Source: Opitutaceae bacterium (GTDB lineage Bacteria > Verrucomicrobiota > Verrucomicrobiia > Opitutales > Opitutaceae). From it: a DNA stretch of 64,000 bases. The stretch lies in contig JAEUGX010000092.1 of assembly GCA_016795545.1 (NCBI GenBank), positions 1 through 64,000 of the forward strand. The letters are read 5' to 3'. The notes under the pieces were generated by a model. That model was not told where the DNA came from and made no database searches. It was given only the letters and a program-made list of their open reading frames with translations. Positions within the stretch are counted from its first letter, which is position 1, and every line of letters begins with the position of its first letter. This document shows, in pieces, positions 34,077 to 39,260 of this stretch. The position numbers were made by a program, and so were the translations under genes.

Positions 34077-34943
34077 ATGGTCGTTTACATCGATGGCAAG
34101 TATGTTGACTCCACGGAAGCCAAGGTCTCGGTCTTTGACCACGGCCTGCTCTACGGCGACGGGATTTTCGAGGGCATCCGGATTTACGGAGGCAACGTCT
34201 TTCGGCTTGAGGAGCACCTGGAGCGGCTCGAGATGTCGGCCAAGGCGATCATGCTGGCCATGCCGCTGAGCCGGGCGGAGCTTTCGGCCGCAGTGTGCGA
34301 GACCTGTCGGCGGAACAAGCTGAATGACGGCTATATCCGGCTGGTGATCACCCGCGGTGCGGGCGACCTGGGCCTGGCGCCCTGGCTGTGCGAGAAGCCG
34401 ACGATCTTCATCATCGCCAGCAAGATCTCGCTTTACCCGCAGGAGTACTACGACAACGGCCTGAGCATCGTCACGGTGCCGACCCGCCGGATTGCACCGG
34501 ACGCACTGCCGCCGACGGTCAAGTCGCTGAATTACCTCAACAACATCCTGGCCAAGATCGAGGCCCGGCAGGCTGGTGCGCTCGAGGCGATCATGCTGAA
34601 CAGCCAGGGGTACGTCGCCGAGTGCACGGCGGACAACGTCTTTATCGTGCAGAAAGGCGAGATCGTCACGCCGGCGGCTTCGGCCGGGGCCCTGAAGGGC
34701 ATCACCCGCTCGACGATCTTCGACATTGCCCGTGAAATCGGCGTGCCGATGCGCGAGGCGGACCTGACCCGTTACGATGTCTGGTGCGCTGACGAATGTT
34801 TCCTGACCGGCACCGGCGCCGAGGTCATTCCCGTGGTGAAGCTCGACGGCCGCGTGATCGGCAACGGGAAGCCCGGCGGGATCACCCAGCGCGTGCTGGC
34901 CAGCTTCCGGAAGCGGGTGCAGGCCGAAGGCACGCGCATCTGA
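34077..34943 (+). CDS. ilvE: Branched-chain-type class IV aminotransferase
   Basis: 288 residues. The PLP lysine is Lys149 in TVKSLNYLNN, Glu181 in GYVAECTADNVF matches the conserved glutamate contacting the PLP pyridine N, and TGTGAEVIPV marks the phosphate-binding turn. DHGLLYGDGIFEGIRIYGG near the N-terminus is the usual IlvE pattern. It probably interconverts branched-chain amino acids and 2-oxo acids with glutamate. D-amino-acid transaminase or aminodeoxychorismate lyase activities belong to the same fold and cannot be fully excluded. It is followed 174 bp later by mcsA. Confidence 0.87.
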   Translation: MVVYIDGKYVDSTEAKVSVFDHGLLYGDGIFEGIRIYGGNVFRLEEHLERLEMSAKAIMLAMPLSRAELSAAVCETCRRNKLNDGYIRLVITRGAGDLGLAPWLCEKPTIFIIASKISLYPQEYYDNGLSIVTVPTRRIAPDALPPTVKSLNYLNNILAKIEARQAGALEAIMLNSQGYVAECTADNVFIVQKGEIVTPAASAGALKGITRSTIFDIAREIGVPMREADLTRYDVWCADECFLTGTGAEVIPVVKLDGRVIGNGKPGGITQRVLASFRKRVQAEGTRI

Positions 34944-35024
34944 GCGGAATCGGGGTCGCGGCCGGCCGGACAAACACCGGCGGTCGATCGTCAACCGTCC
35001 GCGCTTGCCTAGCCGAGCGGACTT

Positions 35025-35040
35025 TGGCACATGAATTGCA
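35025..35040 (+). promoter_or_regulatory. Sigma-54 (-24/-12) promoter element before mcsA
   Basis: TGGCAC-N5-TTGCA with exactly twelve bases from the GG to the GC doublet, matching the RpoN consensus (YTGGCACG-N4-TTGCW) except for the G after CAC. It lies in the 174-bp gap after ilvE, and the predicted start near 35051 would give a leader of about 67 nt before the mcsA ATG. Sigma-54 promoters need an enhancer-binding protein; none is encoded nearby. Confidence 0.72.
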
Positions 35041-35117
35041 AGGGAAAGGAGGCTGGTGATCGGGAGCGATTTGCGTTTCCGGTTCCGGGCGCTATTCTCA
35101 CATCATCACTTAAATAC

Positions 35118-35621
35118 ATGGCCAATTCCCTCAAGTGCGACCTCTGTTCCAAGCCCGCGACGGTCCACCTTACCCAGATCGTCAACAGCAAGATTCATAA
35201 GGTGGACCTTTGTGAGGCCTGTGCGCAGGCCAAGGGTGTGACCGATCCCAACGGCTTTTCCCTGGCGGACTTGCTGCTGAAGGCCTCGTTGAATCCCGAG
35301 ACGGGCAGCGACGCGCGCTGCGAGTCGTGCGGATTCACGCAGCAGGATTTCAAGAAGACCGGCCGGTTCGGCTGTCCGGCCTGCTATGATCATTTTTCCG
35401 CGATGCTGGAGCCCATGCTTGAGACGATGCACAAGGGCAACAAGCACACCGGCAAGGTGCCGCAGCGGGCGCTGGAGCGGAAGTCGCTTTACGAGAAGCT
35501 GACGCAGCTCGAGACGGAGCTGGAGCAGGCGATCAAGGCCGAGCGTTACGAGGATGCGGCGCGTTGCCGCGACGAGATTCACCGGGTCCGGCAGTCGGGC
35601 GTCCGGTCTTCCAAGGCGTGA
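35118..35621 (+). CDS. mcsA: McsA, activator of protein-arginine kinase McsB
   Basis: 167 residues from the ATG at 35118; a start at 35031 would add a non-conserved leader. Four CxxC pairs (Cys7/10, 32/35, 68/71 and 86/89) form zinc-binding knuckles, and a UVR motif lies at 124-158. This is the McsA layout of the Bacillus stress operon. McsA binds and stimulates McsB. It is the first gene of mcsA-mcsB-clpC, one base before mcsB. No ctsR lies upstream; ilvE is there instead. A sigma-54-like element is at 35025. Confidence 0.94.
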   Translation: MANSLKCDLCSKPATVHLTQIVNSKIHKVDLCEACAQAKGVTDPNGFSLADLLLKASLNPETGSDARCESCGFTQQDFKKTGRFGCPACYDHFSAMLEPMLETMHKGNKHTGKVPQRALERKSLYEKLTQLETELEQAIKAERYEDAARCRDEIHRVRQSGVRSSKA

Positions 35622-35622
35622 G

Positions 35623-36705
35623 ATGAAGATCAACGAGCTCATCGAATCGCATTCCGAGCTGACCGACACGGCGGCCAGCAAGAGCGCCGTCGTGCTCATG
35701 ACCCGGATCCGGCTGGCGCGCAATCTGGCGCAGCAGCCCTTTCCGGGCTGGGCCAAGGAGGCGCAGAAGCGGGAGATCCGCGACCAGTGCATGCAGGCGG
35801 TGGCGGCGCTGCCGCAGATGAAGCGCGGGCTGGCAATCCCGGTCGAGAATCTCGACGAGCTGCAGAAGCAGATCCTGGTGGAGCGGCATCTGATCAGCCG
35901 CGAGCTCTGCCACGCCAAGTCCGGGGCCGGCATCGTCATCAGCAAGGACCAGTCCTGCGTGGTGATGGTGAACGAGGAGGATCATCTCCGCATCCAGGTG
36001 CTCCGGGCCGGATTCCAGTTCAAGAAGGTGTGGGCCACCATCAACGCTCTCGACACCGACCTCGAGGAGCACCTCGACTACGCGTTCTCGCCGCGGCTCG
36101 GCTACCTGTCGGCCTGCCCGACCAATCTCGGCACCGGCATCCGCGCCTCGGCGATGATGCACCTGCCGGCGCTGGTGATCTCGTCGCAGATGGAGAAGGT
36201 GGTGCGGGCGGTCAACCAGCTCGGCATGGCCGTCCGCGGCCTGTTCGGCGAGGGCTCGGACGCCAGCGGCAGCATCTTCCAGATCTCGAATCAGACGACG
36301 CTGGGCGAGAGCGAGGAGGAGATCATCAAGCACCTGCACGGCGTGCTGACGACCATCGTCGAGCAGGAGCAGAACGCCCGCCAGAAGCTGCTGGAGACGG
36401 ACCCGAACAAGCTGTTCGACAAGATCGGCCGCGCGTTCGGCATCCTGCAGAACGGCTACCTGCTCAATTCCGGCGAGGCGATGAACCTGCTCTCGCTGAT
36501 CCGGCTCGGCATCGACCTCGGCATCTTCGCCGACGCGCAGCGGGCCGTGATCGACCGGCTTTTCATCGAGTGCCAGCCCGGCCACGTCCAGCACGCGGCC
36601 AAGGGGGCCTTCGAGCCGGGGCAGCGCGACGTGCTGCGGGCCGAGCGCCTGCGGGTCGAATTTGCCAAAGTGACCCCGCCTGATTTTAGTAACGCCGCCC
36701 GTTAA
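35623..36705 (+). CDS. mcsB: Protein-arginine kinase McsB
   Basis: 360 residues from the ATG at 35623. Its phosphagen-kinase-like catalytic domain shows TRIRLARNL at 27-35, the NEEDH motif at 117-121 and SACPTNLGTG with Cys165, the conserved active-site positions. McsB phosphorylates arginines of unfolded proteins, marking them for ClpCP in Gram-positive bacteria. Creatine or arginine kinase specificity is unlikely because the N-terminal guanidino-substrate domain is absent. The gene sits one base after mcsA and 20 bp before clpC. Confidence 0.95.
   Translation: MKINELIESHSELTDTAASKSAVVLMTRIRLARNLAQQPFPGWAKEAQKREIRDQCMQAVAALPQMKRGLAIPVENLDELQKQILVERHLISRELCHAKSGAGIVISKDQSCVVMVNEEDHLRIQVLRAGFQFKKVWATINALDTDLEEHLDYAFSPRLGYLSACPTNLGTGIRASAMMHLPALVISSQMEKVVRAVNQLGMAVRGLFGEGSDASGSIFQISNQTTLGESEEEIIKHLHGVLTTIVEQEQNARQKLLETDPNKLFDKIGRAFGILQNGYLLNSGEAMNLLSLIRLGIDLGIFADAQRAVIDRLFIECQPGHVQHAAKGAFEPGQRDVLRAERLRVEFAKVTPPDFSNAAR

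Positions 36706-36725: not shown

Positions 36726-39260
<2,535 letters not shown>

Follow-up and report, generated by a model that had tools for sequence, protein, structure and literature searches.

A probable sigma-54 promoter, conserved across the order, in tandem with a likely sigma-70-type promoter before mcsA-mcsB-clpC in an Opitutaceae bacterium

A -24/-12 element at positions 35025–35040 of a 64,000-nucleotide stretch of an Opitutaceae genome (assembly GCA_016795545.1, contig JAEUGX010000092.1; the whole stretch is hereafter the window) is very probably recognised by sigma-54 (RpoN) as a promoter, termed P1, of the mcsA-mcsB-clpC operon for arginine-phosphorylation-driven proteolysis. 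Judged from sequence, the best reading is of a real sigma-54 promoter placed in tandem with a sigma-70-type one, P2. The element and the operon downstream of it are as follows.

35025–35040, + strand: P1, -24/-12 element TGGCAC-ATGAA-TTGCA, read from the sequence; sole perfect match in the window, with a spacing conserved across the order
35118–35621, + strand: mcsA, protein-arginine kinase activator, 167 amino acids, with four CXXC pairs and a UVR motif
35623–36705, + strand: mcsB, protein-arginine kinase, 360 amino acids, identified by model and structure matches
36726–39260, + strand: clpC, AAA+ unfoldase, 844 amino acids, with two Clp_N domains, AAA_2 and a UVR motif

The sequence at 35025–35040 reads TGGCACATGAATTGCA, confirming the TGGCAC-N5-TTGCA element with exact -24/-12 spacing reported in the original prediction; its position also stands, with the distance to the mcsA ATG at 35118 counted here as 77 bp rather than 78 bp. 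Exactly 10 bp separate the GG at 35026–35027 from the GC at 35038–35039, in keeping with GG-N10-GC, and this geometry predicts a transcript start near 35051. A pattern search of the window for perfect TGGCAC-N5-TTGCW identified TGGCACATGAATTGCA alone; when up to two mismatches were allowed five matches were found, below the 12.5 expected by chance from shuffles, so that the perfect match alone is informative and, with relaxed patterns at chance level, the claim rests on conservation. In the whole 3,545,358-bp assembly the perfect pattern occurs five times and a reversed control pattern not at all, against approximately 3.4 matches expected from uniform composition; a single genome therefore cannot prove the site, whereas conservation across relatives does.

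Phylogenetic footprinting at the canonical spacing is, as sequence evidence for the site, decisive. Regions upstream of mcsA, sampled in the family, in the order as a whole and in further orders of its class, were scanned over their last 200 bp for TGGC[AG]-N(k)-TGC, where k = 7 corresponds to the canonical -24/-12 spacing. Within Opitutaceae, k = 7 was observed in 52/69 sequences and 35/42 genera (shuffles average 0.8), and within other families of the order in 18/58 sequences and 11/35 genera (shuffles average 0.3), the latter drawn from eight families (f2, f4, f5, f10, f11, f14, f17 and f24); none of the 18 sequences from other orders carried it (shuffles average 0.2). These counts span 46 genera and are uncorrected for shared ancestry. 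Other spacings were found in 0–3 sequences each, save k = 2 (6) and k = 3 (16) in Opitutaceae, a side peak that may arise from the TGGCATGGTGC wording of one clade; counted by genus, every other spacing but one gives 0–4 genera. When one sequence is taken per genus, the bases between the boxes are mostly variable, with a preference for A following TGGC and, within Opitutaceae, also following TGC, and the distance from element to ATG ranges across relatives from about 31 to 180 bp. Among named loci, the stricter TGGC[AG][CT]-N6-TGC[AT] has been identified in 34/80 mcsA upstream regions, in 0/80 on the opposite strand, and elsewhere in the same 80 loci once in 1,014,450 strand-bases. A constant degenerate sequence, GGAA...TGCTTG (GG-N10-GC), precedes mcsA in family f8 (L133, L135, L137, L146), and may represent a diverged -24/-12 element.

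The genome encodes the machinery that such a promoter requires. A single rpoN is located on the same contig as the operon (DNA-binding domain at C38:104556-105032), and its product is intact: the domains for activator interaction, core binding and DNA binding are all present, as is the RpoN box ARRTVAKYRE. Three enhancer-binding proteins, each with a receiver domain, were identified, carrying the activator loops GSFTGA (C33, which also features a Fis-type helix-turn-helix), GAFTGA (C6) and GAFTDA (C98), so that a search of the genome for rpoN and an activator, as proposed with the original prediction, returned both. Upstream of the C33 activator, at a distance of ∼1.2 kb, is a gene for a PAS histidine kinase, and in several other families a homologue of this kinase is found immediately 5' of the C33-type activator; activators of this type (E <= 1e-120) are present in 75/87 order genomes. 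As rpoN is nearly universal (110/120 family genomes, 77/87 order genomes), co-loss of rpoN and element was unusable as a test and was dropped. Spacing, intact rpoN, activators and order-wide conservation with variable spacer and flanks together lend the predicted sigma-54 reading strong support.

Identification of the operon as mcsA-mcsB-clpC is likewise borne out. The first product (P0001) scores 131.8 bits against the NCBIfam McsA model, under the cut-off of 210, and is hence best termed McsA-like; the second (P0002) scores above the cut-off of PRK01059, a model for protein arginine kinase, with protein-arginine kinases as its nearest solved structures (6fh1, 8wtb, 6tv6). The nearest named records are metagenome-assembled genomes of Opitutus, Lacunisphaera and Oleiharenicola, which places the window in Opitutaceae (Verrucomicrobiota).

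Upstream of mcsA, three further features enter the argument.

34077–34943, + strand: class IV aminotransferase, the upstream neighbour
35005–35033, + strand: candidate overlapping sigma-70-like pair, TTGCCT (35005–35010)-N17-CACATG (35028–35033)
35071–35098, + strand: P2, sigma-70-like block TTGCGT-N16-TATTCT, conserved in close relatives

P1 and P2 both fall within the 174-bp gap between the aminotransferase gene and mcsA (34944–35117), and a start near 35105 would be expected from P2. The P2 sequence TTGCGTTTCC is identical in 10 close relatives, nearly all of which also have a CTAT-like -10, and the block TTGCGTTTCC...CTATCCT was found by regular expression in 15/19 closest relatives and by eye in the others, being retained in close relatives that lack P1. 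A consensus scan identified no sigma-70 site, P2 missing the -35 rule of that scan.

Several observations weigh against control of the operon by sigma-54. The relaxed form [TCA]GGCA-N7-TGC is present in just 9/19 closest relatives, the element being degenerate or absent in about half; given the strong conservation of P2 in the same set, in this genus P1 may not be fully required, with P2 likely acting as the basal promoter. The anticipated conservation before mcsA thus holds across family and order and is missing from roughly half of these closest relatives, a loss that the original prediction had counted against itself. In order families f9, f12, f21 and f22, rpoN is present yet no clear element was found. 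Neither the C33 nor the L253 group could be assigned as the mcsA activator, and a comparison of dyads across genera with shuffles revealed no convincing shared activator site upstream of mcsA; the dyad most above shuffles, GTGC-N9-GCAC (14 genera), has the look of the closing stretch (3') of the preceding gene's coding sequence. Sequences resembling a sigma-70 promoter, considered below, overlap the element in Opitutaceae and are to be counted on the same side.

Candidate activators and activator sites have been observed as follows. Two family genomes have an ortholog of the C33 protein as their sole activator, which at first seemed to identify the mcsA activator; the argument was dropped, given that the -12 box is lost in one (G076) and reads CGC in the other (G045). 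L253-type activators are encoded by all four congeners sampled (G037, G071, G093, G113) and by many order genomes; none was found in the present assembly, which is 90.7% complete, indicating either a gap or a loss. A block GTCACGATTGCACC-N-TTGGCGCAnTGCGCCGCGAC, containing the short palindrome GGCGCA-N-TGCGCC, is conserved roughly 60–90 bp 5' of the TGG before mcsA in L030, L031, L073, L075 and L076, and is a possible activator site.

The overlapping pair could be taken as a sigma-70 extended -10 promoter, in which TTGCCT serves as the -35, followed after a spacer of 17 by TGG and the -10 CACATG, with TGC merely in the start-site region. TTGC lies 16–19 bp before TGG in 27/35 element-bearing Opitutaceae genera, the would-be -10 positions A2 and T6 are enriched in the family (33/35 and 25/35 genera), and one clade (L018–L024) has kept TTGCnT-N16-CAnnTT while losing the -12 TGC. 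This explanation is nevertheless unlikely, as eleven genera of other families feature TGGC-N8-TGC without a conserved TTGC, a sigma-70 promoter has no need for TGC at exactly that distance, the window pair is weak, its -10 ending in G in place of T6, and the consensus scan is negative; with the TTGC pair confined to Opitutaceae, the -24/-12 element has the wider distribution of the two. A variant within sigma-54 use, in which the same bases would be read by sigma-54 and, in Opitutaceae, by sigma-70, with sigma-54 as a possible roadblock until activated, fits the conservation of both sets of positions in the same sequences (27 genera) and has a precedent in Chlamydia hrcA-grpE, where tandem sigma-66/sigma-54 promoters are described and sigma-54 is proposed to be repressive when its activator is limiting (PMC8762339); it is possible but on balance doubtful, given the poor -10 in the window and the ability of P2 to supply sigma-70 transcription. 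P1 thus stands as a predicted sigma-54 promoter, though probably not as the sole promoter, in view of P2 and of the overlapping TTGCC/CAnnnT in Opitutaceae.

That the element is instead an operator for another repressor or activator would accord with a bipartite motif at fixed spacing, and is very improbable: the motif has no inverted repeat, the base after TGC being A in 31/35 and G in 4/35 genera and never the C required by a TGGCA/TGCCA palindrome, and it fits the consensus for sigma-54 in a clade where rpoN is nearly universal, its perfect form standing also before a flagellar gene. A chance match in one genome, compatible with the small excess of perfect matches over expectation and with the placement of one of them in a coding sequence, is next to inconceivable when a single spacing is conserved over so many genera and the motif is nearly absent elsewhere in the same loci. 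As a separate observation, a clade near the window's genus (L018–L024 and L062–L071) has retained TTGCnT-N16-CAnnTT and lost the -12 box, which has the appearance of a sigma-54 promoter converted to sigma-70 use.

A sigma-54 promoter fires only once a dedicated activator acts, with ATP. At the proposed sigma-54 promoter P1, RpoN-RNA polymerase would bind the TGG (-24) and TGC (-12) at 35025–35040 as a silent closed complex. Opening of this complex would be driven with ATP by an enhancer-binding protein, in all likelihood a receiver-type response regulator in its phosphorylated form; the resulting transcript, starting near 35051 with a leader of ∼67 nt, would span mcsA-mcsB-clpC. P2, as a sigma-70-type promoter in tandem, would probably provide basal expression, and the activator signal, once on, would raise the amounts of McsA/McsB kinase and ClpC and thereby arginine-tagged proteolysis. 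A silent promoter dependent on an ATP-burning activator would constitute a tight, signal-gated switch. More speculatively, and on present evidence rather improbably, the arginine-phosphorylation/ClpC system may be a two-component sigma-54 output order-wide, with the Opitutaceae promoter a composite on shared bases at which RpoN would first silence and then, on signal, fire.

McsB-ClpC proteolysis has been studied mainly in Firmicutes, where it is under CtsR repression, and a sigma-54 promoter would represent a different control logic. The gene order mcsA-mcsB-clpC is shared with Bacillus ctsR-mcsA-mcsB-clpC; here, by contrast, no CtsR or CtsR box was found, and control would be of the activation type. 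The absence of CtsR put forward in the original prediction is probable, not proven: no ctsR match was identified in this incomplete assembly, a weak negative given that the same search was also silent in a B. subtilis control, and the window contains no CtsR heptad operator with up to three mismatches allowed. No CIRCE boxes were found in the window.

With respect to -24/-12 class sigma-54 promoters in general, the consensus, the GG-N10-GC geometry and the presence of rpoN and enhancer-binding proteins are all shared, and the target, an arginine-kinase/ClpC proteolysis operon, differs. The open-licence literature yielded no paper that explicitly assigns a sigma-54 promoter to mcsA-mcsB-clpC; the control mode, initially thought undescribed, is nevertheless not wholly without antecedents. 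One of these concerns COG3880, which we take to be McsA. A 2025 sigma-54 regulon survey lists ‘proteins with CXXC pairs (COG3880)’ among the sigma-54-enriched groups in Opitutia, together with COG0577/COG1136 ABC transporters and motility (PMC12316311), the latter two of which match other sites observed here. The available text places COG3880 among the poorly characterised groups, with no discussion of McsA, the operon, a second promoter or the depth of conservation (PMC12316311). The promoter described here would account for this unassigned entry.

The other antecedent is the Chlamydia AtoS-AtoC sigma-54 network. According to the accessible portions of these reports, combined knockdown of sigma-28 and sigma-54 in Chlamydia trachomatis lowered mcsA (-2.71) and mcsB (-3.93) (PMC10597470), and overexpression of ClpC in Chlamydia raised atoC, atoS, mcsA and mcsB (PMC11708050). 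This antecedent is an indirect one: the knockdown was combined, those portions contain no mapped mcsA promoter, and Chlamydia belongs to another phylum of the same superphylum. Taken with the knockdown data, the present findings suggest that a link between RpoN and arginine phosphorylation may be a shared trait within the Planctomycetes–Verrucomicrobia–Chlamydiae (PVC) superphylum.

Flagellar genes are a classical class of sigma-54 targets. Among the other perfect matches in the assembly, one (C99:3068, L012) stands 29 bp ahead of an FlgE/F/G-type gene of the flagellar rod. A second, upstream of a TolC-like gene for outer-membrane efflux, is found again in two congeners; a third, upstream of a gene for a small exported protein, has congener counterparts that stand in front of a TonB-C protein (G093) and of an activator operon (G113); and the remaining one falls inside a coding sequence. 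As predicted targets these sites are plausible, and they back the consensus used.

Genes for a GAFTDA receiver-type activator, a histidine kinase and MacAB-like ABC proteins were also observed (C98:5000-15000, L125; L280; C79:13898, L011), and a perfect -24/-12 site stands ahead of the GAFTDA-type activator in congener G113, with another such site ahead of a TolC-like gene. These C98-type activator, MacAB and TolC-like sites look like a sigma-54 envelope/efflux regulon, matching the COG0577/COG1136 groups given for Opitutia in the survey (PMC12316311).
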